Shown here piece after piece: positions 11,840-31,095 of a DNA stretch of 64,000 nt. The notes under the pieces are model-generated. The model saw nothing but the letters and a program-made list of their open reading frames with translations, did not search any database and was not told the DNA's origin. Position 1 is the stretch's first letter. Every line of letters begins with the position of its first letter. Origin of the DNA: Myroides profundi (GTDB lineage: Bacteria > Bacteroidota > Bacteroidia > Flavobacteriales > Flavobacteriaceae); assembly GCF_000833025.1 (NCBI RefSeq), contig NZ_CP010817.1, positions 1,860,001-1,924,000 on the forward strand, written 5' to 3'. Position numbers and translations under genes: made by a program.

Positions 11840-11842
11840 GCT

Positions 11843-12741: not shown

Positions 12742-12746
12742 ATTCA

Positions 12747-13234: not shown

Positions 13235-13470
13235 AATATTTGTTTTGGTTGTTATTCGATAGAGGAATCCCTCTATTACAAATAAAGTTATTTTTATTGA
13301 AGTACAAAAATTTAACCTGATTAGAGTGTGTATTATAACTGCTAAAAATGTAAAACATTTTTTATCAAATGATAAAAAAAAGCTTTTTCTATATCCTAAT
13401 CTTTGTATCCCAAAAATAGCGTGATAAGGCTATATCATTATTAAATAATAATTTAATCAATACAAGTAAA

Positions 13471-14448: not shown

Positions 14449-14453
14449 ATAAG

Positions 14454-14478
14454 AAAGAGCCTTCGGGCTCTTTTTTTT
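14454..14478 (+). terminator. Rho-independent terminator with TTCG tetraloop
   Basis: AAAGAGCC-TTCG-GGCTCTTT followed directly by a T-run, six bases after the preceding stop codon. Confidence 0.9.
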
Positions 14479-14657
14479 GTCTTAGAATAAAGGACTAACA
14501 GTTGAGTTCCATTTCTTAGGAATGAAATAAAAGAATTTGGTAATCAGAGCCCTACTATAAGTTTATTGACTGTTTTTTACTCTATTATAGAAATACTAAA
14601 GCTTATGAAAATTCTAAATATGAGAATATTTTAACCGCTATAAATTCTAAAAACAGG

Positions 14658-14927
14658 ACAAATCACAGCTGTTAAAAATATTAACATTTAGGGTTTTTTA
14701 GGAATTTTAAGCATGCGATAAAGCTAGTGATATCAAGGGTTTCGGGAAGGTTGTATGGGCGTTGTTCGGAAGTTCTTTGCAAGGTGTTCGGAAAAAGGGG
14801 GTGTTTTCCGAACACCTTCCGAACAAACCACAACGTATACCGCATGAATACTCGGTTCGCAGTGAATTAATGCTGTTAAAAAACTTGTTAAAATTTTAAA
14901 ATTGAGATTTTGAAAGCTGTGATTTGT
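14658..14927. repeat. Large foldback element with GC-rich central hairpin
   Basis: Outer arms ACAAATCACAGCT (14658-14670) and AGCTGTGATTTGT (14915-14927) are perfect inverse complements. Near the same centre lies a 15-bp perfect stem (14781-14795 with 14804-14818). It extends to 14762 and 14826 if an 11-nt bulge on the left arm is allowed. The core is much GC-richer than the flanks and repeats the word TTCGGAA. The 820-bp gap around it has no credible gene. Confidence 0.6.
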
Positions 14928-15305
14928 GCTTTCTTTTTGGTGAGATGTACCAGACTTTGAATAGAAGAATATTCTCAATAATGGACATTGAGTCAAAGCC
15001 TTTACTGTAGGCAAAGGTAGTAAAAAAATAGATAGGAGAAAAGAGGGTGTAGGAGGTAAAGGGGAAAAATAAATGGTGTGTCTAAGAGAATTAAGTAATG
15101 GGAATTGTTTTATATAACTATTTGAATTGTTGTATTTTGGTTTTATTATTTTGATTAATTTTATTCAAAGTGTGAGGAAGTGCTATTTATGTATTAATAC
15201 CCTTATAATAGCAAATGATTTACCTTAAATTAAAAAACACTGCTTTATCTAGAATGATACTGTAGTTGTATAGCAGTAATGTAGATGTTATAATTAGATG
15301 ACACA

Positions 15306-15632
15306 ATGAAGTTAGTGGACTTAGTGAAATATTTCAGAAAAGGAGGGGCGTATCAAGACTTTTGTAAGGAGTACTCACTGAATGTTGATTCAGAGGTTAT
15401 CGAAATATATATGGAAACACCTTTTCAAATAGATAATGAGCTCTCTTTTTTTGAAATAGAACAGACAGAAGGAGTGTTAGAGTTTGAAGTTAATAATATA
15501 GTGTTGTCAAGTTTATTTGATTTCTATGTGTTTCTTGACATGATTGAAGAATCAAATCAAGAGACCTATAAGAATGTAAGCGATCTAGATATTGCTAAAA
15601 GGCTTATTAGTTATGGTTTAAATAATGCTTGA
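15306..15632 (+). CDS. Small acidic protein of unknown function
   Basis: A 108-residue cytoplasmic-type protein, rich in Glu and Asp, with no signal peptide or membrane segment. Visible features are VKYFRKGGAYQDFCKEY near the start and SLFDFYVFLDMIEES towards the end. The family was not recognised. Small acidic orphan proteins of this size beside similar orphans are often immunity proteins of polymorphic toxins, but that is inference only. The next gene starts 90 bp downstream on the same strand. Confidence 0.55.
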   Translation: MKLVDLVKYFRKGGAYQDFCKEYSLNVDSEVIEIYMETPFQIDNELSFFEIEQTEGVLEFEVNNIVLSSLFDFYVFLDMIEESNQETYKNVSDLDIAKRLISYGLNNA

Positions 15633-15722
15633 GGAAAGCAATACTTAATAGATGTTATTTTTATGAGACAGGATATATGGGGAATATTTGTGATAAAAGG
15701 AAGATTAAGATGAATAAATAAG

Positions 15723-16070
15723 ATGAAAGAGATTAGTGAAGAACAATTGTATAGCTATTTTTTAGAAACTCTTAATTGTTGTGGTACTTTTCTTCTAGAT
15801 CGTAATGATGATGAAATAGAGTATTTGATTTTTGAAGTATTCGATATTAATGTTCGTACATTTTTTTATTGTGATACGCTTATAAAGTTACTTACTAATA
15901 AAAGAATATCAATAGAAACGTATGAAAAAGCAGTGAAGGTTAGATGCCTATATTTGAGTATCGTGGGGACTGACTTATGGAGTATTAAAGGTATAAGAGA
16001 AAGTGATATATGGAAAGAGATTTTTAATCTATGTGATGATATAAGAAGAAATGAAATTATAAAAGAATGA
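15723..16070 (+). CDS. Small protein of unknown function
   Basis: A 115-residue acidic protein without signal peptide or membrane helix, containing NCCGTFLLDRNDDEIEYLIFEV near the start. The family was not recognised. It is codirectional with the orphan at 15306 and separated from the sensor-regulator at 16246 by about 175 bp. An orphan immunity or stress-related protein is possible. Confidence 0.5.
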   Translation: MKEISEEQLYSYFLETLNCCGTFLLDRNDDEIEYLIFEVFDINVRTFFYCDTLIKLLTNKRISIETYEKAVKVRCLYLSIVGTDLWSIKGIRESDIWKEIFNLCDDIRRNEIIKE

Positions 16071-16245
16071 ATAAGATACAGTTGTTTGGTAATCCCAGTA
16101 AGGAGATATTGCCAAGAGATGTGTTATCTATATAGTATTAAAACATTTTTTCTAACATATAGGTAACTATAATTTAACTTGGGCTTACGGACTAAATATT
16201 TGAATACCTTTATTTTTACGCATTTTATAAGCTATAATAGTGCCG

Positions 16246-19200
16246 ATGCGTTGGTTTTTTATATTTTTTCTGTTTTCTTGCCTCTCTTGGGGGCAAAATG
16301 TCCACTTTAAAACAATCACTACAAAAGAAGGACTTTCTAATAATTCTATTAATTGTATAGCAAATCACCCTGATGGGGCAGTCTGGATAGGGACTTGGGA
16401 TGGGCTAAACCTATTCGATGGTAAACAAGTAAAGGTCTACAAACACGACCCTAAGAATCCTAATTCTATTGGAGGTAATGATATTTATGCATTACTAAGA
16501 GATAAAGAAGATCGTTTGTGGATCTTATCTGATGGAAAACAGATTAGTTTGTGGATAAAGGATGATGTATTTCAGAATTATAGTTTTTCTAGTGAGCCTC
16601 GTGTATTGAGTTTAGATGAACAAGGCAATATTCTCGTACAGCTAGAATCAAAAAAGTGGTTCACTTTTAGAGGAGGTCAGTTTGTGTCTGTAGATGCTCG
16701 TTATAGTGGGGATATGGCAGATCACTTAGTGGAGGATGCAAGAAAGAAGTCACCTCAGTATTATGTACAAGCTAGTTTACTAGAAAATATACGAGAGCAA
16801 TTTCCCGAGTTTATTATCAATGCTATTGCAACAGAGGCTAACGGGAATACATGGATCGGTACTAAAAGTCAAGGTGTTTTTCTGTTAAGAGCAATAGAGG
16901 GGGAATATAAGATTATCGAAAACCACAAAGTAGATCCGCAGCATCCTTATAGTTTACTCAGTAATGAGGTGATGGTACTGCATATAGATAAGTTTGACAA
17001 TATATGGGTAGGGACTAAAGATGGTGGAGTCTCTATTCTACCGACGAATAAAGCAAGTCTTGATTATGTGTTTTCTCATTCAGAGAGACAACCTCATTTA
17101 CCACATGAGACCATTCGCGCTATTGCAGTAGATAAGCTAGGAGGTAGATGGATAGGGTATTATACACAAGGAGTGTTCTATCAAAAGAAGCGAAATGAAC
17201 CTTTCGTACCAGTTGTTATCGAAGAATATAAAGAGAATAAGGATTGGAATAGAGTACGCAGTTTATACTCGGACTCTCATGGTAATATCTGGATAGGAAC
17301 TTATGCAGGAGTAGTAAAAATAGAACAGGGCAAACAAGAGTTTTTTCAAGAGGGAATTACCAAGCATTTTATCAGTAATAGAACGTATGCTTTCGCAGAA
17401 GATATCAATCATTATCTATGGATGGGGAGCTGGGGAGGTGTGAGTAAGTATAATGCATTGACTAAAAAGTTTGAACCTTTTGTCAATCAAGATAAATTAA
17501 AGCAATACCATATTCGTCATATTTCTATTCAAGATAATTTATTGATTTTAGCTACTGAAGAACATGGGGTGGTATTCTACGATTGTCGATCTGGGGAGAT
17601 TAATATCATTAATCAAGAAAAAGGATTGCTAGGCAATAGTGTATTCTCTACTTATGCAGATGCTTTTACAGGTGATCTATGGGTGGCTACTTTAGGAGGA
17701 ATATCAGTATTTGATACTGACTATGAACTTAAGAAGCAAATTAGAGAAGAAGATGGTCTTCCTAGTCATTTGGTGTATAGTCTTACTCCTTCTCAGGATG
17801 ATGTTTGGATTAGTACTACTAAAGGAATAGCTTCAATAGACAAACATACTTATAACGTCTTAAACTTTAGTAATTATATTGGTTGGCAAGGACTAGAATT
17901 TTCTGAAGGAGCATATAGTCAGAGTAAAAAAGGCTTTCTGCTTTATGGAGGAAATAAAGGCTTAAATATTATAGATCCAGGACATCTGAGAAATGATCAA
18001 AAAGCTCCAGAATTTAGAGTCTTACTCAATGAACGTATAGCAGAAGAGGGGAAGGTTAGTTTTTTTGATCCAGATGAGAATAAATTGCGTCTTACACTCT
18101 ATCCTATAGGTTTTAATCAATATCCGATTAATCAATTTGAATATAGAATAGTAGGTCTTTTTGACGATTGGAGGGTTCTTCCTCAAAAAGAAGTTAATTT
18201 AGATGATTTAGACCATAAACGCTATCAGATAGAGATACGTGATACAGTACAAAAAGACAAGCGTATAGTATATATGATTGCTTTTGAAATCGAAAAGCCT
18301 TTCTTTCTACAGCCTTATTTTGTTATTTTATTTGTCATCGCTGGAGGGATGATTGTTTTATGGCGTGTACGTATCAAGCAAAGGAAGATGAGAAAGAGAG
18401 AGATCGAGCTTAAAAAACAAGTAAGAGATCGCACAAAGGAAGTGGAAGCACAAAAGAGACATCTCGCTAATAAAAATGAACAGCTTAGTATTCTAAATCA
18501 AGAGATACAACAACAGAAAGGAGAATTACTGAATCTACATAGCAAATTAAAGAATGACGATATAGAGATGGAGAATTTCAGAATCTTCTTGTTGTCTAGA
18601 ATTAAGAAGCCTATTGTCAATACATTGGGGATACTAGAAGAACTTAATGTAGAAACGACACAAAAGGAGGAGTTGATTAAAGTTTATGATATGGTTCGGG
18701 AGTGGAACTATATAGAGCAGGTTAAGGATTTTGATACTATAGAATTAGTAAGTGTAGAGATGACTTCTTTTATAGAGCACCTAAAAGAGGAGTGGGGAGC
18801 GATAAAAGAGAAGTATGGTGTAGAGGTAGTAGTGTGTAATGAAGTAGATGCTCAGTGGGTAGAAGTAGATTTATTGCGTTTTAAACTGTGCTTGCGTTAT
18901 CTGCTATACGAATGTTATAAATATTTAGAAGATAATCAGCAAATAACGGTTCGTTTCTATATGAAGAACAATGTTTTATATATTGATTTAGACTCTGTGA
19001 GTCATACTTTATTTGCGTTTTGGAATGACAACAGAAATTTTAGTCCTTACTATAGAGCTTTTGAGACTTTATTACAAAATCTAAATGGTACACTGATGAT
19101 TAATAGTCAGTCAGTGTTCTCTCTTGGCATATCTATTCCTTTAGTTCCATTAGAAGAGAATAAAGGGATTGAGAAAGGGAATTGGAATGAATTCTTAGAA

Positions 19201-19983
19201 GAGCTACAAGTGCTCCCAAAGGATAAAAACAATATTCTAGTGTATGCTAAAGAAGAGGATAAGGCAATTGTCAAACAGTTATTGGCTGGACAAGAAGATA
19301 CTAATTTGGTCTATAATCACAGTGTGAGTAGAGTGGTAGGGAATATAGAGCATTATAAGTATGACGCATTAGTACTTTATAATATTGAGATGTCTGATCG
19401 CACTTTATCTTTATTTGCACAGATTAAAAAACAGGCTCAGAAACAAAGGTTACTTATCTTTTATATTGCAGAGACAGTAGATTATTTTGTACAAGAGCAA
19501 TTGAGTCAATTGGGAGTTAGTGATTTTATTCACTTACCAGTTGGTAAAACGACCTTAGATAATATGGTTTTTAAGCGTATTCGCTATGATAAGGAAAACA
19601 AGGAAAGCAATACAGTCCTTTGGAAGGCGAATCTAACAGAGGATGTTATAGTGAATCTTTCACCTAATGAACGTTTGTTTAGAAAAGGAATGGAAATGAT
19701 GAATGCAAGATTTAGTGATGCCTCGTTCAGTGTAGATCAATTGACAGTAGAGCTAGGTATTTCTAAGATGAAGTGCTATCGTTTGTTTAAAGAGTTTGTA
19801 GAGCAATCTCCTTTAGAAATATTAATTGAAATGCGCTTACAAAAAGCAAAAGTATTGATCGAGAAAGGGGACTTGACAATTTCAGAAGTCTGTTTTGAAT
19901 GTGGTTTTAACGATCCAAAATACTTCAGTAAATCTTTTAAAAAGCGCTTTGAACATAGTCCTTCACACTTTAAAAATGACTAG
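16246..19983 (+). CDS. Hybrid one-protein sensor/AraC-type regulator with degenerate kinase and receiver (HTCS-like)
   Basis: About 1245 residues. The ATG at 16246 was chosen over an in-frame GTG at 16240 because it gives a clean signal peptide ending SWGQ. Domains in order: periplasmic Reg_prop beta-propeller repeats (recurrent NIWIGT, GNTWIGT), a Y_Y_Y domain (to about 680), a membrane helix (about 690-710), a coiled coil, a kinase-like region, a receiver-like region and a C-terminal AraC HTH (about 1140-1245). The H-box position reads LLSRIKKPIV with no histidine (about 778). The receiver strand reads DALVLYNIEM, so the usual aspartate is Asn or Tyr (about 1040). HTCS proteins normally sense a periplasmic ligand and activate an adjacent SusCD operon. 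That operon follows directly. Confidence 0.85.
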   Translation: MRWFFIFFLFSCLSWGQNVHFKTITTKEGLSNNSINCIANHPDGAVWIGTWDGLNLFDGKQVKVYKHDPKNPNSIGGNDIYALLRDKEDRLWILSDGKQISLWIKDDVFQNYSFSSEPRVLSLDEQGNILVQLESKKWFTFRGGQFVSVDARYSGDMADHLVEDARKKSPQYYVQASLLENIREQFPEFIINAIATEANGNTWIGTKSQGVFLLRAIEGEYKIIENHKVDPQHPYSLLSNEVMVLHIDKFDNIWVGTKDGGVSILPTNKASLDYVFSHSERQPHLPHETIRAIAVDKLGGRWIGYYTQGVFYQKKRNEPFVPVVIEEYKENKDWNRVRSLYSDSHGNIWIGTYAGVVKIEQGKQEFFQEGITKHFISNRTYAFAEDINHYLWMGSWGGVSKYNALTKKFEPFVNQDKLKQYHIRHISIQDNLLILATEEHGVVFYDCRSGEINIINQEKGLLGNSVFSTYADAFTGDLWVATLGGISVFDTDYELKKQIREEDGLPSHLVYSLTPSQDDVWISTTKGIASIDKHTYNVLNFSNYIGWQGLEFSEGAYSQSKKGFLLYGGNKGLNIIDPGHLRNDQKAPEFRVLLNERIAEEGKVSFFDPDENKLRLTLYPIGFNQYPINQFEYRIVGLFDDWRVLPQKEVNLDDLDHKRYQIEIRDTVQKDKRIVYMIAFEIEKPFFLQPYFVILFVIAGGMIVLWRVRIKQRKMRKREIELKKQVRDRTKEVEAQKRHLANKNEQLSILNQEIQQQKGELLNLHSKLKNDDIEMENFRIFLLSRIKKPIVNTLGILEELNVETTQKEELIKVYDMVREWNYIEQVKDFDTIELVSVEMTSFIEHLKEEWGAIKEKYGVEVVVCNEVDAQWVEVDLLRFKLCLRYLLYECYKYLEDNQQITVRFYMKNNVLYIDLDSVSHTLFAFWNDNRNFSPYYRAFETLLQNLNGTLMINSQSVFSLGISIPLVPLEENKGIEKGNWNEFLEELQVLPKDKNNILVYAKEEDKAIVKQLLAGQEDTNLVYNHSVSRVVGNIEHYKYDALVLYNIEMSDRTLSLFAQIKKQAQKQRLLIFYIAETVDYFVQEQLSQLGVSDFIHLPVGKTTLDNMVFKRIRYDKENKESNTVLWKANLTEDVIVNLSPNERLFRKGMEMMNARFSDASFSVDQLTVELGISKMKCYRLFKEFVEQSPLEILIEMRLQKAKVLIEKGDLTISEVCFECGFNDPKYFSKSFKKRFEHSPSHFKND

Positions 19984-20068
19984 AAGAATGTGTAGAATAG
20001 ATTATCCTAGTGTTAACTAAAGGTTATTGTCCAAATAGTACACTACTCTGATATAGAATTAGTCTTTT

Positions 20069-20105
20069 ACTGAAAGATTATTACACTTGACTGAAAGAAA
20101 ATTAC
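20069..20105 (+). promoter_or_regulatory. Tandem direct repeat, probable operator of the AraC-type regulator
   Basis: ACTGAAAGATTATTAC (20069-20084) and ACTGAAAGAAAATTAC (20090-20105) match at 14 of 16 positions with a 21-bp period, so both face the same side of the helix. The pair lies 60-96 bp upstream of the susC start, where an AraC-family activator would bind. No TAnnTTTG box is seen between it and the ATG, consistent with an activator-dependent promoter. Confidence 0.6.
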
Positions 20106-20164
20106 CCCTGTATTATACAAAGCAGAAGTACTTTCGAAAGTGAAATATCAATGTAATCAATCTT

Positions 20165-23100
20165 ATGAAAAGACATTTCTTAGTATGGCTGTTATGTATA
20201 GGAGGTAGTACTTTCTTACATGCACAAGTGATAGTAAAGGGAAAGGTAGCAGGCAAAAGTGATGGCCTACCTGTTTCTTTTGCTACAGTAATCGCGAATA
20301 AGGACAATTCTACTTGGGTAACTACGGATGCCGATGGGAATTTTACGCTAGAATTAGCCAAAGAAGCAGGTACTCTTTCTGTGGAGTATTTAGGGTACAA
20401 AACAAAAACGATCAACTATCAAGGCGCTCAATTAGTAAGTATCCTTTTAGAACAAGACAGCAATATCTTAGATGAGGTCGTTTTAATTGGATATGGAGCT
20501 TCAAAGAAAAAAGATATTACCACTTCGATTGCAACAGTGGATAATATTAAGCAAGTTGCCTCTAGACCAGTGTCTAATTTAAGTGATTTCTTACAAGGAC
20601 AAGTTGCTGGGGTAACTGTAACACAGCAAGGAGGAGATCCTTCTGAGAGCAGTAAGATGGTTATCCGTGGTTCAGGTTCATTAGCTAATGAAGCACCACT
20701 TACTGTAGTAGATGGTGTCCCTTATTATGGACCAGCAATTAGCCCAAATGATATTGAATCTGTATCTATCTTAAAAGATGCAGCTGCAGCTGCAATCTAC
20801 GGAGCTCAGGCTGCTTCAGGAGTAATTGTAATTACAACTAAAAAAGGAGTAAAGGGAGATCCTAGTGTTTCTTTAAATGTGTATACAGGTTTTTCAAAAG
20901 CTACAAACTTACCAACGCCATTAGATGCACAAGGGCAAGCTTCTGTATATAATATGGCTGCAGATAATGCAGGAGTACCTAGGCAGTCTGCGCATGATGC
21001 TCTACTTAATCCATGGGGACAAGTGAATAGAACAAATTGGATGGATGAAATCTTTAGAACTGCAGCTATGCACAATGTAGATGCTAGTATTTCTGGAGCT
21101 TCTGACCATACGAATTATTTTGCTTCTCTTGGGTATAATAAAAAAGAAGGAACTTTAATAGGAACATTTTCTGAACGTTATAACTTTAGATTAAAGGCAG
21201 ATACTAAGCTGACTGATAAAGTTACTATTGGAGAGAATGTATACTACTCTAATACGAATGCTATTGGCACTAATACTACAAGTTCTTATTCAGGAAGTGT
21301 CATCAGTGCTTTATATATGCCTTCTGCAGCGCCTGTATACGATGCTGATGGTAAATTTGGAGGAGTAGTACCTCATGATTTAGCACAGTTTGCTGGAGCG
21401 TATGGAGATGTATATAATCCAGTAGCATTACTGTTAAGACCTACAACATCTAATCCAACGAATTTCTTAAATGCCAATGTGTATTTAAACTATGATATCG
21501 TTGATGGATTATCCTTCAAAACTTCTTACAGTTATGATTACACAAGTAATAAGTATAAGAAATTTACGCCTAAGGCACCAGAGTTAGGAAGAACAAACTT
21601 AAATAATTACCTATTAGAAAATAACTACGAAAAGACCCATTGGATATGGGATAACCAGTTGACTTACCACAAGACATTTGGTAAGCATGATGTTAATTTA
21701 ACGGCTATCCATTCAGCACAAAAAACAAATTACGACTATATTTCTGTTCAAGGAGAAGGTTTTGGAAGTGAAGAATCATTTAACCAGTATATGGGGAATG
21801 CCTCTATCATCAGAAAGCCAGTTACAGAGGTGTATGAAGATGCATTAACTTCTTTGATAGGACGTGTGATGTATAACTTCGATGATCGATATTTTGTATC
21901 GGGAAGTTTGCGTAAGGACACTACTTCACGTCTAGCTAAGAATAACCAATCAGAAGTATTCCCTTCTGCGTCTGTGGGGTGGAGAATATCACAAGAGAAC
22001 TTCTTTAATGTAAATGCAATAAGTGAATTAAAATTAAGAGCTTCTTGGGGACAAATCGGGAATATTAATTCTGTAGGCTATTATTCTTTTGATGTACCAC
22101 TTAGCAATAGTGATATTATTATGGGAGAAGATGGTATGCTTACAGGTAAAGGAACTTATGTAAACCGTCAGTCTAACCCTAACTTAAAGTGGGAAACATC
22201 AGAATCTTTTGATATTGGGCTAGATGCTGCTTTCTTTAACGGACGTTTAAACGTAGTGGCTGATTACTTTAGTAAGCGTACTAAAGGGATGATTATTCCA
22301 GGATTAGAAGATGCTCATCATGGTACAGCGGCAGCAGATGTAAATGGTGGTGAAGTACTGAATAAAGGTATTGAATTGTCATTGAGTTATAATGATCATA
22401 TAGGAGACTTAAACTATAAGATTTTTGGAAATGCAAGTTTCTTAGAAAATGAACTAGTAAACTTAAATGGATATAACCAAAGTGGAATAGACTATATCGC
22501 CCATGGAGATAATGTTCGTGGGGTGCTTTCTCCATATAGATCTGTAGTAGGTAGACCGCTTTACTCTACTTATTTAGTTCCTTATTTGGGAATCTTCCAG
22601 TCGCAATCAGAGATTGATGCGCACCGTTCTAATGAGGGTAAATTAATACAACCTAATGCTAAACCTGGTGACTTTAAGTTCGAAGACAGCAATGGAGATG
22701 GTAAGATAGATAATAATGATAAGCAGTTTATGAACGCTTATTTACCTAAGATTACTTATAGTTTTGGTTTAAACTTAGAATATAAAAACTTTGATCTAAG
22801 TATGTTCTTCCAAGGAGTAGGTGATGTGAAAGTATTCAACGGATATAAGTTCACAGCTTACAATGCTTCTTTACAAGGATATAATTTAGATAGTCGTGTG
22901 ATGGGAGCATGGACTCCTGATAATCCGAATGCTAGTCTTCCTAGATTATCTACTAAAGATGATAATCAGAACTATGGAACGACTTCTAGTTGGTACTTAG
23001 AAGATGCTTCTTATTTACGATTAAAGAACTTAACAATCGGATACACTATGCCTAAGAGTGTAATGAATAGTCTATCCCCTAAATCTAGTTTAAGAATATT

Positions 23101-23233
23101 CATGTCTGGAGATAATTTATTTACGATTACTGGATATGATGGTATAGATCCAGAAGTAGGAGGTGTAGGAATGGACGTAGCAAGATATCCTGTGTCAAGA
23201 ACAATATCAGGAGGTTTCTTATTTACTTTTTAA
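20165..23233 (+). CDS. SusC/RagA-family TonB-linked outer-membrane transporter
   Basis: A 1022-residue protein. It has a signal peptide ending LHAQ (about residue 20), a CarboxypepD_reg-like domain (about 25-105), the SusC plug with DEVVLIGYGASKKKD, VRGSGSLANEAPLTVVDG and SILKDAAAAAIYGAQAASG, and a 22-strand-type barrel ending in F. SusC transporters import oligomeric nutrients with a SusD lid. The two downstream hydrolases act on phosphate esters, so the cargo is more likely a phosphorylated compound than a plain glycan. It is the first gene of the operon, 12 bp before susD. Confidence 0.93.
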   Translation: MKRHFLVWLLCIGGSTFLHAQVIVKGKVAGKSDGLPVSFATVIANKDNSTWVTTDADGNFTLELAKEAGTLSVEYLGYKTKTINYQGAQLVSILLEQDSNILDEVVLIGYGASKKKDITTSIATVDNIKQVASRPVSNLSDFLQGQVAGVTVTQQGGDPSESSKMVIRGSGSLANEAPLTVVDGVPYYGPAISPNDIESVSILKDAAAAAIYGAQAASGVIVITTKKGVKGDPSVSLNVYTGFSKATNLPTPLDAQGQASVYNMAADNAGVPRQSAHDALLNPWGQVNRTNWMDEIFRTAAMHNVDASISGASDHTNYFASLGYNKKEGTLIGTFSERYNFRLKADTKLTDKVTIGENVYYSNTNAIGTNTTSSYSGSVISALYMPSAAPVYDADGKFGGVVPHDLAQFAGAYGDVYNPVALLLRPTTSNPTNFLNANVYLNYDIVDGLSFKTSYSYDYTSNKYKKFTPKAPELGRTNLNNYLLENNYEKTHWIWDNQLTYHKTFGKHDVNLTAIHSAQKTNYDYISVQGEGFGSEESFNQYMGNASIIRKPVTEVYEDALTSLIGRVMYNFDDRYFVSGSLRKDTTSRLAKNNQSEVFPSASVGWRISQENFFNVNAISELKLRASWGQIGNINSVGYYSFDVPLSNSDIIMGEDGMLTGKGTYVNRQSNPNLKWETSESFDIGLDAAFFNGRLNVVADYFSKRTKGMIIPGLEDAHHGTAAADVNGGEVLNKGIELSLSYNDHIGDLNYKIFGNASFLENELVNLNGYNQSGIDYIAHGDNVRGVLSPYRSVVGRPLYSTYLVPYLGIFQSQSEIDAHRSNEGKLIQPNAKPGDFKFEDSNGDGKIDNNDKQFMNAYLPKITYSFGLNLEYKNFDLSMFFQGVGDVKVFNGYKFTAYNASLQGYNLDSRVMGAWTPDNPNASLPRLSTKDDNQNYGTTSSWYLEDASYLRLKNLTIGYTMPKSVMNSLSPKSSLRIFMSGDNLFTITGYDGIDPEVGGVGMDVARYPVSRTISGGFLFTF

Positions 23234-23245
23234 TCACTTATAATT

Positions 23246-24835
23246 ATGAAAAAATATAGTTTATCTAAATATAGCTTAGTATTAGGTTTATCAGCAATCT
23301 TATCACTAGGAGCTTGTAGTTCTGATTTTACAGAGTTAGATCCAAAAGGAAATACATCTTATGAGAATTTCTGGAAAACAGAGCAGGATGCTACAGAGGC
23401 GGCTAATAGCTTGTATCAGATGATGATGGAAGATGAAATGTTTGGGAGAGGATTCTTTTGGTATATTAATGCTTCTGACGATATGGTAACAGGACGTCTT
23501 AATGCAACAGCAGACAATATTAAAAACTTTAACCTAAATGGGGATGAGGGTTATATCAATGGTATTTATCAAAATGCTTATAAAGTAATCCGAAGAGCTA
23601 ATGATATCATTGTTAATGTTCCTGGAATGAAAATCAGTGAATCATTAAAAAAGAGAGTACTAGGTGAGGCTTATTTTATGCGTGGTTTCTTTTATTTCTG
23701 GCTAGCGCATACATATGGAGATAATGGAAATAACGGTGGTGTGCCTATTATTACAGAGGCTAATATGTCGCAGCCAGCAGGTAGCTATACAAGGCCAAAA
23801 AGCGTGATTGAGAACTATGACCATATCGTTCAGGATTTGACAAAAGCATCAGAGTTATTGCCTCTTTTTACTTCTTATTCAGCTGATAATTATGGTAGAG
23901 CACATAAAGATGCTGCTTTAGCCTATATCGCAAAGACTTATTTATATTGGGCACAATATGACTCTTCTAAGTTTAATGAAGTAATTAAGTATGCAGATGC
24001 AGTTACAAATTCTGGATCAGGAAGAGCACTTGTCAATACAGGTAATCCTTCTAAAGATTACAGAGAATTACACAGTGCTTTAAACAACTGGAAGAGTGAG
24101 TATATCTGGTCTGTAAACTCTGGAATAGAAGGAGGGAGTATTCTTCCGGGCTGTATGTTAGAGAACAAAGGATGGGGAGCTTATAACGGATGGGGGTATT
24201 TTACACCTACAGAAGGACTATATCAAGAGTTCGAAAAAGGGGATGCACGTAGAGCAGTAACGCTAATGGTCTTCGGAGATGAGTTTAGCTACTTTGGGCA
24301 AACCAAAAGATATTCTTCAGAGAACTCGATGTCTGGACTTCAGTTTAACAAATATATGTATGAGTATAGTACAGAAGATGCTTTAGGGAAGTTTATCAAT
24401 ATGAATGGAGATAAACCAACAACAAACTACAATGTTCCTCTAATGCGCTATGCTGAGATTTTATTAATGAAGGCTGAAGCTCAAATCATGTTAGGGCAGA
24501 ATGGTGATCAGGCATTAAATCAGGTGCGTAAGCGCGCTGGATTAGCACCTAAGAATGGGGCGACGATGACAGACTTAAAACATGAGAGAAGAGTAGAGTT
24601 AGCTGGAGAATTTGCAAATAGACATTTTGACTTAGTAAGATGGGGAGATGCAAAAGAGGCTTATGGAAAACCTCTTTATGGAAGAATTCATGAAGATCGT
24701 TCTAACCCTGATTCTCCTTATAAGGTATCAGAGGTATGGAAAGCTAGAAACTTTGACGCAAGTTATATGCATGTATGGCCAATACCGAATAGGGCTGTAC
24801 AATCATCAGGAATACAACAAAACGTAGGATGGTAA
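23246..24835 (+). CDS. SusD/RagB-family nutrient-binding lipoprotein
   Basis: A 529-residue protein with a lipoprotein signal peptide ending LGAC (Cys24) followed by acidic residues typical of surface-exported Bacteroidota lipoproteins. The N-terminus (FTELDPKGNTSYENFWKTEQ) and C-terminus (NQVRKRAGL, HERRVELAGEFANRHFDLVRWG) are standard SusD signatures, with TPR-like helices between. It caps the SusC barrel and selects the ligand. A terminator 20 bp beyond its stop separates it from the hydrolase genes. Confidence 0.93.
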   Translation: MKKYSLSKYSLVLGLSAILSLGACSSDFTELDPKGNTSYENFWKTEQDATEAANSLYQMMMEDEMFGRGFFWYINASDDMVTGRLNATADNIKNFNLNGDEGYINGIYQNAYKVIRRANDIIVNVPGMKISESLKKRVLGEAYFMRGFFYFWLAHTYGDNGNNGGVPIITEANMSQPAGSYTRPKSVIENYDHIVQDLTKASELLPLFTSYSADNYGRAHKDAALAYIAKTYLYWAQYDSSKFNEVIKYADAVTNSGSGRALVNTGNPSKDYRELHSALNNWKSEYIWSVNSGIEGGSILPGCMLENKGWGAYNGWGYFTPTEGLYQEFEKGDARRAVTLMVFGDEFSYFGQTKRYSSENSMSGLQFNKYMYEYSTEDALGKFINMNGDKPTTNYNVPLMRYAEILLMKAEAQIMLGQNGDQALNQVRKRAGLAPKNGATMTDLKHERRVELAGEFANRHFDLVRWGDAKEAYGKPLYGRIHEDRSNPDSPYKVSEVWKARNFDASYMHVWPIPNRAVQSSGIQQNVGW

Positions 24836-24854
24836 TTTAATTTCAAAACCAATT

Positions 24855-24890
24855 GAGGGCTACCTTTTTGGGGCTAGCCCTCTTTTTTAT
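24855..24890 (+). terminator. Intra-operon terminator/attenuator after susD
   Basis: GAGGGCTA pairs with TAGCCCTC (8 bp, 12-nt loop) and is followed by a T-run. It ends only about 10 bp before the next start codon, so it probably lets only part of the transcripts read into the phosphatase genes. Confidence 0.75.
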
Positions 24891-24898
24891 GCAACACA

Positions 24899-26692
24899 AT
24901 GAAACGACTTTTTTTATCTATAGCCTTTATTTCAAGTGTCTTAATGGCTAATGCTCAATCAAAAAATTATAAGATACACTCTCATAATGATTATCATCAA
25001 TCTACTCCTTTCTGGACGGCTTATTCTAATGGAGCAGAGTCCATAGAGATTGATTTAGTCATAGAACAAGGCAAGTTATATGTAGCACACGAAGTAAGTT
25101 CTGTACAAGTGAATAGAACGATAGAAAGCTTGTATTTGGAATCATTAGAAAAAGCTATTCAATTAGGTATTGGTAAGGCAAAGGGACTTAGTTTTTTAAT
25201 TGATTTAAAATCAAATGCAAATCAGTCTATGGAGCTATTATTACCAGTACTGAAGAAGTATGAAAGATTAATTAAAGAACAAGAAATTACTTTTGTTATT
25301 TCTGGGAATAAGCCAGATACAAAAGTTTTTGAACAATATCCTTACTATGTAAAATTAGATCACCAGAGTTTAACTCCTTTAAAAAATGCAATGCTATGGG
25401 AACGAGTAGCCATGGTAAGTCTTAATTTTAAAGATTACTCTGTTTGGAATGGTAAGGGGCGCATGGTAGAAGAAGAAAGACAAAAACTTCAAGAAGTAAT
25501 AGACTTAGTTCACAAGCAAGGTAAACAAGTTCGCTTTTGGGGAACTCCAGATGGAAAAACTGCATTTAAGGCGTTTTATGATATGGGCATTGATGTTATC
25601 AATACTGATAATCCTTACTTAGCACAGACATACTTAAAAAACTTAGATCGTGCTGTATATCATAATACAACAGTATCTGAGGTCTATAAGCCAACATTTG
25701 CAAATGATGATAAGGATGTACCTATTAAGAATGTTATTCTCTTAATAGGGGATGGAAATGGGTTGACACAGATATCTTCTGCTGCTTTAGCAAATGGAGG
25801 TGACTTAAGTTTACTTCAGTTGAAGAGTGTAGGCTTTATCAAAACGCAAGCAGGGGATGATTTTACAACAGACTCTGCAGCAGCAGGAACTGCTTTAGCA
25901 ACAGGTCAGAAAACCTATAATCGTTCTATTGGGATGGGTATGGACAGAATGCCTTTAAAGAATATGACGGAGTACTTAGCGCCGTTTAATTATAAAACGG
26001 GAGTAATTACCACGGATGAATTAACAGGAGCTACGCCTTCTGCTTTTTACGCACATCAAAAAGATAGAGATGATAGTTCATTAATAGCTCAAGATTTATT
26101 AAAAAGCCAACTTTCTCTCTTTGTAGGTGGAGGAAGGAAGTCCTTTAAGAATGTGAATTTAAAGCAAGAGTTTACTTTACTAGAGCAAGTAGAACAGCTT
26201 AGTACTAGTAAGGATGCTCGTGTTGGTTATTTCTTAGGAGAAGGAGGATTAAAAGGTGTAATAGAAGGAAGAATAGACGTTTTAGCACAGTCTACTAAAC
26301 ACAGTTTAGACTTTTTGTCAAAAGGAGATCAACCTTTCTTTTTAATGGTAGAAGGAGCTAAAATAGATTCTTATGGTCATTTTAATAATACAGGAGGCAT
26401 TGTAACAGAGGGAATTGACTTCGATAAAGCGATAACAGAAGCTTTAAAGTTTGCAGATAAAGACGGGCAAACCTTAGTTATTATAACAGCAGATCACGAG
26501 ACAGGCGGTTTTGCAATTCCACAAGGAGATGTAAAACAAGGCATTATTGAAGGGGATTTCATCTCTCATGATCATACAGGAACTATGGTGCCTATTTTTG
26601 CTTATGGACCTAAATCGGGTGAGTTTAGAGGAGCTTATGAGAATAATGAAGTATACCATAAGATTATAAAACTCTTAAATCTTGATAACTAA
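24899..26692 (+). CDS. Secreted fusion: glycerophosphodiesterase/PI-PLC-like domain plus alkaline phosphatase
   Basis: A 597-residue protein with a signal peptide ending ANAQ (19-20). The N-terminal part (about 25-250) has the GDPD-type active-site layout: H29 in SHND, E50 and D52 in ESIEIDL, H64 in VAHE. The C-terminal part (about 277-597) is a complete alkaline phosphatase: D285 in IGDGNG, nucleophile S326 in TTDSAAAGTA, MVEGAKID, SYGHFN, TADHETGG and HDHTGTMVP. The fusion could release an alcohol-linked phosphomonoester and then dephosphorylate it in one protein. It overlaps the next gene by one base (TAATG). Confidence 0.88.
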   Translation: MKRLFLSIAFISSVLMANAQSKNYKIHSHNDYHQSTPFWTAYSNGAESIEIDLVIEQGKLYVAHEVSSVQVNRTIESLYLESLEKAIQLGIGKAKGLSFLIDLKSNANQSMELLLPVLKKYERLIKEQEITFVISGNKPDTKVFEQYPYYVKLDHQSLTPLKNAMLWERVAMVSLNFKDYSVWNGKGRMVEEERQKLQEVIDLVHKQGKQVRFWGTPDGKTAFKAFYDMGIDVINTDNPYLAQTYLKNLDRAVYHNTTVSEVYKPTFANDDKDVPIKNVILLIGDGNGLTQISSAALANGGDLSLLQLKSVGFIKTQAGDDFTTDSAAAGTALATGQKTYNRSIGMGMDRMPLKNMTEYLAPFNYKTGVITTDELTGATPSAFYAHQKDRDDSSLIAQDLLKSQLSLFVGGGRKSFKNVNLKQEFTLLEQVEQLSTSKDARVGYFLGEGGLKGVIEGRIDVLAQSTKHSLDFLSKGDQPFFLMVEGAKIDSYGHFNNTGGIVTEGIDFDKAITEALKFADKDGQTLVIITADHETGGFAIPQGDVKQGIIEGDFISHDHTGTMVPIFAYGPKSGEFRGAYENNEVYHKIIKLLNLDN

Positions 26693-28191
26693 TGAAGCGC
26701 TTATTAGTAGGTATAAGTCTTATTATAACGAGTGGAGCTTGGGCACAACAGACACAAGTAAAAGGTAGAGTATTTGAAGATACCAATCAAAATAAGCAAT
26801 ACGATAAAGGAGAACCTCTGTTAAAAGATGTTTTGATCAGTAATGGTAAGGATTTAGTTGTGACTAATGCTAAAGGTGAATATAAGATCAACAGTTTAGG
26901 GCAAGGTCAAATCTTTTTAATCAAGCCTTCAGGATATCAGTCTCCTTTGTCAAAGTCTAATAAAGTTGAGTTTTATATTCCTTTTGGAGAAGAACATAAG
27001 AGTTATGATTTTCCTGTGTATAAGCAAGAGGAAGGTAAACCTCTAAAAGCTGTTTTATTGGGAGATTTGCAGTCGGATGTAATGGATGATATTCATCACG
27101 TAGAAAAACTCGTGGTAAGCGAATTAGCTACCACACCTCCAGATTTAATCTTTCCTCTTGGAGATTTAGCTTTTGATCGATTAGAGGTGTTTGAACCTTT
27201 ATCACAGGCATTAGGCGTAATCGGTAGCCCTATATATTATGTGGTTGGAAATCATGATTTAAACTTTGGGTCAGGTCTAACACTTAATGATAGAGATAGT
27301 AGTTATAAGAAAGCTTTTGGCCCTTCTTATTATGCATTAGAATATGGAGAGGAGCTTATTTTAGTACTTAATAATATACTCCCTGTAAATGACAAAGAAT
27401 ATATAGGAACAATAGATGAGGTACAAAAAACTTTTATACAAAATGTACTGGCGCGATATACTCTAAAGTATGATAAAGTAAAAGTGATGATGCATATTCC
27501 TATTGAGTTTATGGAAGATAAGCAGGAGTTTCTAGACTTGTTTAAGGACTATAAAGAAGTCTTTGTGGCTGTAGGACATACGCATACACAGTATCATCAG
27601 TACTTTGAAAGAGAGAATAAGAAACCTGTACATCAATTAGTAGCTGGAGCTGTTTGTGGTGCGTGGTGGCAAGGGCCTCATGATATAGAAGGTATTCCTT
27701 TTGCTATGATGTATGATGGTACTTGGAAGGGATACTGGACACTAGAAACAAAAAAAGGAGATTATAATTTATCCTATAAAGTATCTGGTAGAGCTGAGGA
27801 TAAACAGATTCAGATTTGGACTCCAGAAGTACAAGAGTGGGATAAGAGTTTAGAACACTTAAACGATGGATATGTCTATGCGAATGTATTTGCGGCTGAT
27901 CTAAATACAAATGTTGAAATAAGCTTCGATGGTGTAAGTTGGCAAAAGATGGAGTACTATGAAGGCGTAGACCCTCATTATACCCGTCTAATAGAACTAC
28001 AGAATCAAGGGCGATATAAAAATATGAAAAGTTCTCCTTTAGTAGATGCTAAAAGGAAGAGTAAACATTTATGGCGTATGCCAATACCAAAGGGGTTAAA
28101 AGAAGGCCCTCAGTTAATTAAAGTAAAAGCTATTGATCCTAGATACGGTCTTAATCATGTGGAGAATCGTGTCTTGTGGACCCCAAAATAG
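26692..28191 (+). CDS. Calcineurin-like metallophosphoesterase with N- and C-terminal accessory domains
   Basis: A 499-residue secreted protein (signal peptide ending WAQQ, about residue 19). Layout: an SdrD/MetallophosN-like beta domain containing DTNQNKQYDKGEPLLKDV (about 25-110), a calcineurin-like catalytic domain and a C-terminal beta domain. Metal-site motifs are GDLQ (D125; glutamine where many families have histidine), GDLAFD, GNHD (187-189), MHIPIEF and VGHTHTQYH. Substrates of this subfamily are phosphodiesters or phosphomonoesters; here unknown. Start and stop overlap with the fusion gene indicates coupled translation. Confidence 0.85.
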   Translation: MKRLLVGISLIITSGAWAQQTQVKGRVFEDTNQNKQYDKGEPLLKDVLISNGKDLVVTNAKGEYKINSLGQGQIFLIKPSGYQSPLSKSNKVEFYIPFGEEHKSYDFPVYKQEEGKPLKAVLLGDLQSDVMDDIHHVEKLVVSELATTPPDLIFPLGDLAFDRLEVFEPLSQALGVIGSPIYYVVGNHDLNFGSGLTLNDRDSSYKKAFGPSYYALEYGEELILVLNNILPVNDKEYIGTIDEVQKTFIQNVLARYTLKYDKVKVMMHIPIEFMEDKQEFLDLFKDYKEVFVAVGHTHTQYHQYFERENKKPVHQLVAGAVCGAWWQGPHDIEGIPFAMMYDGTWKGYWTLETKKGDYNLSYKVSGRAEDKQIQIWTPEVQEWDKSLEHLNDGYVYANVFAADLNTNVEISFDGVSWQKMEYYEGVDPHYTRLIELQNQGRYKNMKSSPLVDAKRKSKHLWRMPIPKGLKEGPQLIKVKAIDPRYGLNHVENRVLWTPK

Positions 28192-28420: not shown

Positions 28421-28519
28421 TATGCTTAGGAAATAAAGAGATTTGCATAAATTGCTTTTGGAATAATGTTTTAAAATGCTATAAATTCTTTATTTTAGAT
28501 AATTTAATTGAGAACAGGA

Positions 28520-30007
28520 ATGATAAAAAAAGGTTTATTATTAATTGCCTTATTATTGAGTAGTTCTTTTGTATTAGGACAGAAGAAATATTCGGAGTTG
28601 ACGAAAGAAGATTATTTAAATGATTTTGATATACTTATTAATATTATAAAAAAGCAACACCCTAATCCATTTCGAACTATTAGTGAAAAGGACTTGGATG
28701 CAAAAGTTGCTGAAATAAGAAAAAAACTAGAAGAGAATCCTTCTTATGCTAATTTCTTATTATCTAATCCGATTCCTTTAATTCATGATGCTCACTCTTC
28801 ATTGAGTACAGATAGTACCGTTTTTGAGGATTTTACAAAGGAAACTTCTTTTTTTCCAATTAATACAATTGTCTATGATGGAAAGGTGTTTGTGAATCAA
28901 CACAACCCTACTATACCTGTAGGAAGTATTATTACCAAAGTAAATGATGTAAAATCAGGAGATTACTTAAAGCGTATTAATGTAACCACGGATGGAAGTA
29001 TAGAAGCTGATGATGCAAAGGACTTTTCGTTCTATGTGTCTTTAATGAGTCCTGAGCAAGAGTATAAAATCACTTATCTTGATAGTCTAAATGCTGTAGA
29101 GAGTAAAGAAGCTACACTGAAGGCAGTTAACTATGCACGAAATTATTACAATGTACAGAAAGCTATATTGCCAGTAGACATCATTAGTTATTCTTATGGA
29201 ATCTATGGGCAGAAGGTCAATGACGATACATACTGCTTAACAATTAAGACTTTTGCTTTTTCAGAAGAGTTCGCTTACCAGAAGTTAAGTTCTTTCTTTG
29301 AGAAGATTAATGAAGAAGGAGTGAAGAATTTAATTATTGATATCAGAGGTAATGGAGGAGGATATCTTAGTAATATTCCTTTGTTTTACTCTTTTATATC
29401 ACAAGAAAAAGTGTTTAAGAACAATTACAGATATGCAACTAAGGTAATAGATATCAATGTACGTGAGAATCTTATAGATGCTAGTGGTAGACAGTATTCT
29501 GATATGGATATTAAGAATATGAATAACTTTATGTTCCAGCGATATGACAAGAGCGAGGTAGAAGGAGATGAGTACTACTATGGTAATAATCGATTAGATG
29601 AGTCTTATGTAGAGAACTATCCTCGTGATCGTTATTTCTTTGAAGGGAATACGATGTTATTAATAGATAATAACACAGTGTCTGCAGCAGCGTATTTTGC
29701 TTCTTTGTTTAAAGAGAATAAAAGAGGAATTATCATAGGACAAGAGACACGTACATGTAGTAACTTCACTACTGCATCTTGGTTTATTAATTATAAACTG
29801 CCTAATACGCAGACGGTGGTAGATTTGCCTCGATCAGAAGTGTTCTTTAATAATTCTATCAGTACAGAGAAGGGGTGTAGAGGAGTACTACCAGACTATA
29901 CTGTAGATGAAAAAGGTTTTTATAGAAGTATCTTAAACGAAGAAGACCCTGAACTTACATTTGCTTTAGATTTACTAAAGAGACAAGCTCAGAATGAAGA
30001 ACAGTAA
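28520..30007 (+). CDS. S41-family (C-terminal-processing-like) secreted peptidase
   Basis: About 495 residues from ATG 28520, preferred over an in-frame TTG at 28508 because it gives a standard signal peptide (MIKKGLLLIALLL, cleavage near LGQ). The S41 core has LIIDIRGNGGG (about 270-281) and NTVSAAAYFASLF, where the serine (about 387) occupies the nucleophile position, and GIIIGQETRTCS. No PDZ signature was clearly recognised. Such proteins are periplasmic or surface peptidases, sometimes lipoprotein-anchored; the substrate is unknown. It is monocistronic with its own promoter and terminator. Confidence 0.85.
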   Translation: MIKKGLLLIALLLSSSFVLGQKKYSELTKEDYLNDFDILINIIKKQHPNPFRTISEKDLDAKVAEIRKKLEENPSYANFLLSNPIPLIHDAHSSLSTDSTVFEDFTKETSFFPINTIVYDGKVFVNQHNPTIPVGSIITKVNDVKSGDYLKRINVTTDGSIEADDAKDFSFYVSLMSPEQEYKITYLDSLNAVESKEATLKAVNYARNYYNVQKAILPVDIISYSYGIYGQKVNDDTYCLTIKTFAFSEEFAYQKLSSFFEKINEEGVKNLIIDIRGNGGGYLSNIPLFYSFISQEKVFKNNYRYATKVIDINVRENLIDASGRQYSDMDIKNMNNFMFQRYDKSEVEGDEYYYGNNRLDESYVENYPRDRYFFEGNTMLLIDNNTVSAAAYFASLFKENKRGIIIGQETRTCSNFTTASWFINYKLPNTQTVVDLPRSEVFFNNSISTEKGCRGVLPDYTVDEKGFYRSILNEEDPELTFALDLLKRQAQNEEQ

Positions 30008-30833: not shown

Positions 30834-31024
30834 TAAATGCCTTGTAAATATTTGAATATTAGCAGGGTACTAATTTTTTTACTATCATTATAATGATGTG
30901 ATTTACTTGTTTCCATTTGTAAGGTGTTGATATATAATGGTGTCTATATCTATACAGTGGTTTATAACTATCTATTTAATTGTTTTTGGAAACGTAATTT
31001 TATTTTTTTGTCATTTGAAATTTG

Positions 31025-31032
31025 TAAATTTG
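31025..31032 (+). promoter_or_regulatory. -7 box TAAATTTG for the secreted unknown protein
   Basis: Exact TAnnTTTG match. A TTG at 31008-31010 is somewhat close for a -33 element. The position supports the start at 31096, not an upstream in-frame ATG. Confidence 0.4.
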
Positions 31033-31095
31033 ATATTCATGGTTTTAGACAAGGAGTTTAGGATTATGTATACTATGTTATTTAAAAAGAAAAAT

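Follow-up and report, generated by a model that had tools for sequence, protein, structure and literature searches.

A probable PUSII-like phosphoester locus in Myroides profundi, apparently run by an HTCS-derived regulator without phosphorelay residues

The window analysed here, a 64,000-nucleotide stretch of the Myroides profundi genome, carries a regulator, a SusC, a SusD, a phosphatase fusion and a calcineurin-like phosphoesterase in that order and on one strand (Table 1), and ORF calls with Pfam/NCBIfam profile searches of the translated ORFs bore out all five as real genes, as the first-pass annotation had proposed. The regulator ORF runs from 16240 to 19983 if it starts at the GTG, with the ATG at 16246 also a possible start. 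Gaps of 12, 63 and −1 bp separate the genes from susC to the phosphoesterase gene, suggesting a single transcript, and these four genes therefore probably form one operon. In agreement with the first-pass annotation, none of the five genes matched a glycoside hydrolase, lyase, sulfatase or esterase profile in Pfam/NCBIfam. The next gene (28508–30007), encoding an S41 peptidase, was rejected as a member of the locus because of its 316-bp gap and because L003 and L004 alone were seen to have an orthologue at that place.

Table 1. Features of the SusCD–phosphoesterase locus, numbered from the first letter of the window
Feature	Position	Strand	Basis or remark
Putative HTCS-derived transmembrane regulator ('pseudo-HTCS')	16246..19983	+	Pfam, alignment, orthologue model
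Candidate operator, TTA repeats at 11-bp spacing	19999..20034	+	Just behind regulator stop codon
Second candidate operator element, direct repeat	20070..20105	+	By eye
SusC-type TonB-dependent transporter	20165..23233	+	TIGR04056
SusD-type surface lipoprotein, subfamily with loop motif YNGWG	23246..24835	+	PF07980, PF14322
Periplasmic GDPD/PI-PLC-like + PhoA-type alkaline phosphatase fusion	24899..26692	+	GDPD_2, Alk_phosphatase
MetallophosN/Metallophos/MetallophosC calcineurin-like phosphoesterase, optional member	26692..28191	+	Pfam

SusC scored 852 bits against its NCBIfam profile (curated cut-off 368), and Pfam gave no STN or FecR_C match in it. The YNGWG loop of the window SusD is shared with SusDs of sigma/FecR-type loci from Pedobacter and same-genus genomes, a class assigned from the sizes and arrangement of its genes (21 loci with 22 susC genes, L033 counting twice) and checked by Pfam at L111 only, where both STN and FecR_C were found. 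Against the window, these loci show 37–41% for SusC and 44–48% for SusD. The loop is present in 44 of 47 SusD rows, the remaining three coming from other SusCD pairs, and is rich in Trp and Tyr, as sugar binders are. The SusD structure model has a mean pLDDT of 83.5, with the likely ligand loop (residues 301–317) under 50; most of the closest folds listed for it are SusDs that are known to bind glycans or carry this in their title, headed by a laminarin binder, and neither of its best PDB sequence matches, 9sje and 9sjj, was among the fold matches listed.

No PF00245 gene was found in the genome besides the fusion, which carries a signal peptide (by eye), a GDPD/PI-PLC-like half at about 24971–25636 (GDPD_2, 32.9 bits, cut-off 27) and a PhoA-type half at about 25721–26677 (183 bits). 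Residues H27, H29, E50, D52, H64 and D102 of the former, and Ser326 and the metal residues of the latter, are kept in 194–196 of 196 aligned fusions (193 distinct rows; the 196 contain the window gene with two duplicates). The fifth gene matches MetallophosN, Metallophos and MetallophosC.

Eighteen further loci show the same order of regulator, SusC, SusD and fusion, and in 17 of them the fusion immediately follows SusD; a chance gene cluster was rejected on this recurrence. Directly behind the fusion lies a phosphoesterase gene in 11 of the 18, a NagX-like gene in two, a gene on the opposite strand in two and another gene in three (a response regulator twice, a TonB receptor once). Two relatives of the same SusD subfamily adjoin a GlpT/UhpT/PgtP-type antiporter gene. 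Together with the intact enzyme residues and the Pi induction published for the nearest relative in the literature, PUSII of Flavobacterium johnsoniae, this supports the first-pass view of a SusCD locus built round phosphoesterases. The proposed five-gene neighbourhood stood for its first four genes; the fifth is optional, being complete in 6 of the 18 loci and a cut-off piece in a seventh (the 10 calcineurin-like rows include one extra copy of the window's gene). In a family sample of 299 genomes, all 13 with the regulator have a full-length fusion enzyme nearby, and these are the same 13 that have a window-type SusD at at least 65%; in a genus sample of 101 genomes, the fusion enzyme lies nearby in 11 of 11 with the regulator. 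In both samples the regulator is thus locked to this locus.

It was on the regulator itself that the first-pass annotation failed. A working hybrid sensor had been proposed, yet the Pfam matches are Reg_prop and HTH_18, with no HisKA, HATPase_c or Response_reg match. The sensor and the AraC-type DNA-binding domain share one chain, which reads, behind a signal peptide and around a transmembrane segment near residues 683–705 (both by eye), as periplasmic propellers, degenerate kinase core, degenerate receiver and DNA-binding domain. A search with the cytosolic part returned 112 database hits, of which the best 55 were taken as relatives and 21 of the rest as intact HTCSs. Across 81 aligned regulators (77 distinct, the 12 of L122–L133 included), no His occurs in the phospho-acceptor column, the receiver phospho-acceptor Asp is replaced by Tyr throughout, the N-box, G2 box and receiver Lys are missing in all 81, and the G1 Gly is missing in 79, the window's among them, the other two having one G1 Gly. 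Partial receiver remnants persist: the second pocket position is acidic in 41/81, and the switch position is Ser/Thr in 63/81. The S/CHIP-D-K contact motif between REC and DBD in HTCSs, absent from a small subset of true HTCSs according to its description (Gao et al. 2024; PMC11253607), keeps its His in 4, its Asp in 2 and its Lys in none of the 81 regulators, as against 18, 22 and 23 of 23 intact HTCSs. The loss of the acceptor His, of the N and G2 boxes and of Asp and Lys in the receiver leaves the protein with no normal ATP site and no normal phospho-acceptor, and the regulator is, judged from its residues, unable to work by HTCS phosphorelay; an ordinary working HTCS was rejected on these losses and on the missing kinase and receiver matches. 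In a tree of 41 rows (40 different), 18 degenerate regulators stand on one side of a 100/100 branch and 23 intact HTCSs on the other, and the degenerate regulators are one clade in the sample used. A structure model of the orthologue P0135, built from an alignment of 31 regulator proteins, keeps secondary structure in the kinase-core-like and receiver-like regions; its best Foldseek match was 4a2l (BT4663), in a search dominated by the propellers and bearing on the periplasmic part. The protein therefore appears to be an HTCS derivative that has kept the layout and lost the usual phosphate-relay parts.

Between the regulator gene and susC lie two candidate operator elements, the first with the pattern GATTA-N8-TTA-N8-TTA and a TTA spacing of 11 bp, the second a direct repeat (CTGAAAGATTATTAC / CTGAAAGAAAATTAC, 21 bp apart). 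The pattern of the first has one perfect match in the 4.06 Mb genome, whereas a four-repeat TTA pattern was unspecific (4 matches, control 4). An operator PWM was applied upstream of susC at 27 regulator loci, 25 of these 27 belonging to its training set. It scored at least 15 bits at 25 of the 27; L100, a training locus, reaches 26.4 given enough upstream sequence. Held out of training, the window site scored 24.9 bits, and the held-out sites as a set (the window, its near-copy L003, L004, L110 and the second susC in L133) scored 24.9–36.0. In contrast, none of the 22 sigma/FecR-type susC genes reached 15 bits, and their sigma genes gave at most 11.2. The 11-bp TTA element tracks the regulator, not the transporter.

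The concept of a SusCD system for phosphoesters is already known from soil Flavobacterium, and the part that differs here is the control. PUSII of Flavobacterium johnsoniae, reported in 2020, is a SusCD cluster induced by phosphate depletion that comprises PusC2 (Fjoh_3251), PusD2 (Fjoh_3250) and PhoA1 (Fjoh_3249), the last a PF00245 + PF13653 GDPD_2 fusion, and its description lists it with a FecR-like regulator and a PF16344-bearing SusC (PMC8115612). The present locus, which the first-pass annotation had set against the classical role of SusCD in glycan import, is therefore not the first of its kind to leave that paradigm. Judged by domain content and order, it resembles the PUSII so described in placing SusCD beside an alkaline phosphatase with an extra PF13653 domain, and it shows the PUS hallmark of SusCD co-localised with phosphomono- and phosphodiesterases in place of CAZymes; it adds the MetallophosN/C phosphoesterase. 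PUSII as there described has FecR-like control and a SusC with an N-terminal signalling domain, whereas the window has the HTCS-derived regulator and a SusC without STN or FecR_C; the two PUSII traits belong to PUSII as described and perhaps not to PUS in general. With HTCSs as described (BT4663, BT4124 and others; PMC11253607), the regulator shares the periplasmic propeller sensor, the single polypeptide, the kinase-core-like, receiver-like and AraC-type regions and the gene position beside susCD, but not the phospho-acceptor His, the ATP-site boxes, the receiver Asp or an unbroken S/CHIP-D-K latch.

Plebeiobacterium sediminum (L061) and Saccharicrinis aurantiacus (L064) have SusC/SusD pairs with 51/61% and 40/49% identity to the window, adjoining GDPD-like and alkaline phosphatase genes, and operator-like elements of 29.1 and 18.8 bits, both in the training set. 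Unlike the window, these loci have an intact HTCS with HisKA, HATPase_c and Response_reg, and the two enzymes are unfused; L061 adds a PA14-metallophosphoesterase. Signalling folds retained without phosphotransfer chemistry have parallels in pseudo-histidine kinases such as DivL and in ChxR, an atypical response regulator that reportedly works without phosphorylation, but the present protein combines a degenerate kinase core and a degenerate receiver in a single chain that runs from the sensor to the DNA-binding domain. A search of open-licence literature gave, among the matches listed, neither a degenerate HTCS nor a PUS under an HTCS-like regulator, which is weak evidence of novelty.

We consider it probable that the locus scavenges phosphoesters in the manner of PUSII, under a one-component regulator that descends from an HTCS and is dead for phosphorelay. 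The cargo would be a phosphate ester, as the first-pass annotation had supposed: SusD and SusC would bind and take up an organophosphate, for which a phosphodiester bearing a polyol, inositol or glycan moiety is the likeliest candidate. Once this is in the periplasm, its diester would be opened by the GDPD/PI-PLC-like half of the fusion and its phosphate removed by the alkaline phosphatase half next to it; the calcineurin-like enzyme would broaden the substrate range. We infer that the operon is induced through allosteric activation of the regulator, which would itself be the protein that binds the element: ligand binding to the propellers would cause a shape change that travels, via what is left of the kinase core and the receiver, to an AraC-type dimer on the operator.

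The cargo may differ from this. Under the same regulator, the fusion is followed by NAGLU in L102 and L106, GH92 in L105, an HGSNAT/NagX-like gene in L122 and L124 (gaps of 16–17 bp) and a PI-PLC-X gene in L130, and GH92 also occurs in L134 and L135, whose SusDs are of the window's subfamily but which lack such a regulator. With the fusion followed by NAGLU, GH92 or NagX-like genes at 5 of 26 further mapped regulator loci (18 + 8), and with an aromatic SusD loop, it is possible, if doubtful, that the cargo is a phosphorylated glycan (GPI-/GIPC-type, phosphomannan or teichoic-acid-like) taken up for carbon and phosphate, the phosphoesterases clearing phosphate bridges. The first-pass statement that every degradative enzyme attacks phosphate esters thus holds for the window's locus and fails in those five relatives, where glycan-degrading enzymes, named in that annotation as evidence against it, are in part found. 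The window locus, however, has no glycan enzyme, and at 16 of the 18 others with the same SusC/SusD and regulator no such enzyme immediately follows the fusion (genes further away being annotated in part); the two NAGLU genes start 434–466 bp after the fusion and perhaps have their own promoter; and PUSII responds to Pi depletion (PMC8115612). An ordinary glycan PUL with incidental phosphatase neighbours would account for the PUL hallmarks of an HTCS-like regulator beside SusCD and for a SusD that folds like known glycan binders, but it is very improbable given the fusion's recurrence directly behind SusD, the phosphoesterase so often next to it and the lack of a CAZyme in the window locus.

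On the side of control, we regard it as unlikely that PhoB mainly sets transcription, with a Pho box in the 11-bp TTA repeats and an accessory or vestigial role for the HTCS-derived protein. PhoB-type boxes are 11-bp direct repeats, the form seen here, and in this genome a divergent SusCD–Exo_endo_phos set faces pstSCAB with a triple TTA repeat between them; such a weak triple lies between susC and pstS in 4/4 Myroides-like genomes, this one included, so a PhoB-like reader is conceivable. That intergenic site, however, scores at most 4.0 bits here (8.5–10.9 in three relatives) against 24.9 at the window operator, any triple TTA occurs at only 1 of 10 other pstS genes, and the regulator is conserved over distant genera. 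The sigma/FecR-type susC and sigma genes also fall short of 15 bits, and this in a class of loci whose published example is Pi-induced. That the repeats generally serve these loci as a Pho box was rejected on the low scores before sigma/FecR-type susC and the rarity of such repeats at other pstS genes. That the regulator still phospho-signals, through the receiver Tyr, another residue or a partner kinase, draws on the invariance of that Tyr, the frequent switch Ser/Thr and the secondary structure kept in the P0135 model; set against the phosphotransfer residues absent from all 81 members, and the G1 Gly from 79, it is hardly credible.

On the PUSII-like reading, PUS occur beyond rhizosphere Flavobacterium, in a Myroides-type genome and in further Flavobacteriaceae, and similar SusCD/phosphatase modules stand under three switches: ECF sigma/FecR, an intact HTCS, or an HTCS derivative dead for phosphorelay. 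The third would be a natural test of HTCS signal passage without phosphotransfer, and the operator prediction makes the signalling idea directly testable. A broader proposal, which we think quite unlikely, is that a whole Bacteroidota clade of HTCS derivatives has given up phosphotransfer and, as one-component transmembrane sensors, detects a phosphodiester-linked inositol glycan (GPI-/GIPC-type head group) by direct shape change, and that the locus, with its scattered GDPD/PI-PLC, alkaline phosphatase, metallophosphoesterase, NagX-like, NAGLU and GH92 members, scavenges such lipid-anchor glycans.

The window covers bases 1860001–1924000 of a genome that forms a single contig of 4,064,534 bases and in which one gene with PF00245 was found, the fusion of a GDPD-like domain and alkaline phosphatase (AP). 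It belongs to the five-gene run on the plus strand that the first-pass annotation had correctly described, with gaps of 12, 63 and −1 bp from SusC through the phosphoesterase. The nearest named relative among the genomes listed, Myroides odoratimimus CCUG 39352 (L003), shares 96.0% DNA identity across 20.4 kb.

Genes of the phosphoesterase SusCD locus and their positions in the window
Feature	Position	Strand	Evidence
HTCS-like regulator	16240/16246-19983	+	ORF call, Pfam
SusC	20165-23233	+	ORF call, Pfam
SusD	23246-24835	+	ORF call, Pfam
GDPD-like/alkaline phosphatase fusion	24899-26692	+	ORF call, Pfam
Calcineurin-like phosphoesterase	26692-28191	+	ORF call, Pfam

Lidbury et al. (PMC8115612) describe the Flavobacterium johnsoniae cluster PUSII as FecR-like Fjoh_3252, PusC2, PusD2 and PhoA1, the last carrying PF00245 and PF13653, with transcript changes on Pi depletion of 7.4–9.9 (headed FC; log2FC in the text). 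The window locus is therefore of the published kind except for its regulator, HTCS-derived where that of PUSII is FecR-like, and its extra calcineurin-like phosphoesterase, absent from PUSII as described there; putative orthology was judged from domain content, gene order and shared SusD loops. The interpretation offered in the first-pass annotation was mostly right, yet its outline had already been published. The SusD loop YNGWG occurs in 44/47 SusD rows, the three lacking it being SusDs of other SusCD pairs, and a neighbouring loop, INASDDMVTGR, is kept in many rows and altered in Belliella and the L111–L116 group.

Besides the window, 18 loci (L003, L004, L012, L013, L100, L101 and L122–L133) carry regulator, SusC and SusD, their SusC sharing roughly 48% identity or more with the window's and their SusD no less than 53%, and the fusion directly follows SusD in 17 of them. 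The exception, L133, places a second SusCD and an AP between the two; its two SusCD pairs follow one another in one regulator locus, and the second pair has a strong operator match (36.0 bits). Behind the fusion, the next gene is a phosphoesterase in 11/18 loci: calcineurin-like in seven (truncated in one, where the sequence examined ends), an additional AP in L012 and L013 (the latter by similarity alone), a purple acid phosphatase in L129 and a PI-PLC-X in L130. In the remainder it is NagX/HGSNAT-like (L122, L124), encodes a response regulator or a TonB receptor (L127, L131, L132), or lies on the opposite strand (L126, L128). The proposed search for the same neighbourhood recovers a recurrent four-gene core, but a complete calcineurin-like gene in only 6/18 loci. 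In a sample of 299 genomes of the family, the regulator was found in 13 (E ≤ 1e-120), identical to the 13 with window-type SusD (at least 65% identity); a full-length fusion occurs in 33 genomes of this sample, including all 13. Of 101 genomes in the genus sample, 24 carry a full-length fusion and 11 a regulator orthologue, always with a fusion nearby (contig ends interrupt the loci in G031 and G074); a twelfth candidate, G089, gave only a partial match (1e-33) and was excluded.

Related loci combine these parts differently. In eight genomes (L102, L103/L104, L105–L110), the same regulator precedes a different SusCD pair (SusC ~31–33%) and the fusion, contig ends cutting the fusion to a piece in L103 and the regulator in L110; glycan enzymes follow the fusion in some (NAGLU in L102 and L106, GH92 in L105). 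Pedobacter and several same-genus genomes have ECF-sigma- and FecR-sized genes, then a longer SusC, SusD and fusion; in L111, checked with Pfam, these are ECF sigma and FecR, and SusC carries STN and FecR_C. Unlike the window, L061 and L064 have an intact HTCS ahead of SusC/SusD (51/61% and 40/49% identity, respectively), and their GDPD-like and AP domains are separate adjoining genes. Four family-sample loci have a more distant SusD of the window's subfamily: L134 with GH92, AP and metallophosphoesterase; L135 with GH92, AP, Exo_endo_phos, a further glycoside-hydrolase-like gene and a sugar-type MFS transporter; and L136 and L137 with an organophosphate:phosphate antiporter-family transporter (TIGR00881 E 4e-98 and 3e-99; glpT 3e-90 and 2e-90; none of the matches reaches its curated cut-off). 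The fusion also occurs without SusCD (L005, L007, L044, L049), alongside a complete or partial conserved opposite-strand run of genes (~620, 344, 301, 491, 337, 290 and 313 aa).

Across 196 aligned fusions (the window, 119 database proteins and 76 locus copies; 193 distinct, two extra rows duplicating the window's gene), His27, His29, Glu50, Asp52, His64 and Asp102 of the GDPD-like half, which we take to be those expected of a GDPD/PI-PLC-like active site, are conserved in 194–196 rows. The AP serine and metal residues are conserved in 195–196, and this half aligns across 319 residues with structure 2w5v, a TAB5-type enzyme. The calcineurin-like enzyme has GNHD in 10/10 rows (two being the window's own gene) and GHTH in nine, with AHTH in L043; the usual first motif of such enzymes is DxH, and here it reads GDxQ in 10/10.

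The regulator had been annotated as a hybrid sensor, a misreading: Pfam matched Reg_prop and AraC-type domains in the window protein, with no kinase or receiver domain found. In an alignment of 81 degenerate members (the window, 55 database relatives and 25 locus copies; 77 distinct), the acceptor-column His, N-box Asn and G2 box are absent from all 81, the receiver acceptor Asp is replaced by Tyr and the receiver Lys by Leu, Met or Phe in all, and the G1 Gly is retained in two; the second acidic-pocket position is still Asp/Glu in 41 and the switch position Ser/Thr in 63. The S/CHIP-D-K contact that Gao et al. (PMC11253607) report for HTCSs is broken too, with His in 4/81, Asp in 2/81 (Asn in 74/81) and Lys in 0/81, against 18/23, 22/23 and 23/23 in intact HTCSs (21 proteins plus the L061 and L064 regulators). 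In a 41-row tree with a sample of intact HTCSs, the 18 degenerate regulators fall together, split from the rest by a branch with 100/100 support. Judged by secondary structure, the model of an orthologue, P0135 (mean pLDDT 81.4, pTM 0.52), has propellers and a long helix, a region of mixed alpha/beta structure resembling a kinase core, a receiver-like region with five strands, and the DNA-binding helices. The regulator is therefore maintained as a protein, though not as a normal phosphorelay.

TTA triplets repeat every 11 bp in the interval from the regulator's stop codon to susC: 28 sequences hold 58 pairs at 11 bp, against 1–13 at each other spacing from 4 to 20 bp, and 15 of these related sequences have runs of at least three, against 0.35 in mononucleotide shuffles. 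A 36-bp matrix, for which 25 loci from outside Myroides served as training set, ranks the window element (19999–20034) highest among 203,794 positions (24.9 bits, against 6.1 for the next site that does not overlap it). A pattern of the element has one exact hit in the genome and four hits at three mismatches (control 2). Scores of at least 15 bits precede susC in 25/27 regulator loci (25 of the 27 used in training), the others being Belliella (14.0 and 11.4), and in 0/22 sigma/FecR-type susC genes, whose sigma genes reach at most 11.2. Two of 21 other susC genes reach 15 bits, and both come from regulator loci too, one from L110 and the other being the second susC in L133; these sites, the window, L003 and L004 were held out. 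The element therefore follows the regulator, and its simplest reader would be the regulator itself. A PhoB-like protein might read it instead, as a triple TTA repeat separates pstSCAB from a divergent SusCD/Exo_endo_phos set in 4/4 Myroides-like genomes, this one included, but only 1/10 other pstS genes has such a repeat. A second SusCD phosphoesterase set in the window's genome (L138; G000:C1:2136000-2155000, 5789–16391) comprises SusC (1085 aa), SusD (578 aa) and a pair of Exo_endo_phos genes. It is transcribed divergently from a pstS-like operon whose pstC and pstA were named from position and sequence start.

Control would most likely pass from the propellers to an AraC-type dimer by direct shape change, and SusCD would most likely import a phosphodiester that the fusion would hydrolyse in the periplasm in two steps. 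A cargo of phosphate esters alone would fit the enzymes of the window's locus; against it stand the aromatic SusD loop, nearest SusD folds that include glycan-binding SusDs, and NAGLU, GH92 or NagX-like genes in 5/26 other regulator loci. NAGLU, GH92 and NagX-like enzymes, with PI-PLC and phosphatases, would be the set that breakdown of a GPI- or GIPC-type glycan calls for; we regard the reading with such a glycan as cargo as possible but unlikely.

Further TTA repeats at 11-bp spacing lie elsewhere in the window. A triple repeat upstream of the regulator gene (16145–16180, minus strand) is perhaps an autoregulatory site, or chance, and four repeats at 47287–47323 precede a 155-aa ORF without a Pfam match, the four-repeat pattern being at chance level across the genome. 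The window also encodes a 430-aa protein matching no Pfam family (30937–32229) and, in this bacterial host, a deoxyhypusine-synthase family protein (13471–14448; PF01916, 140.7 bits).
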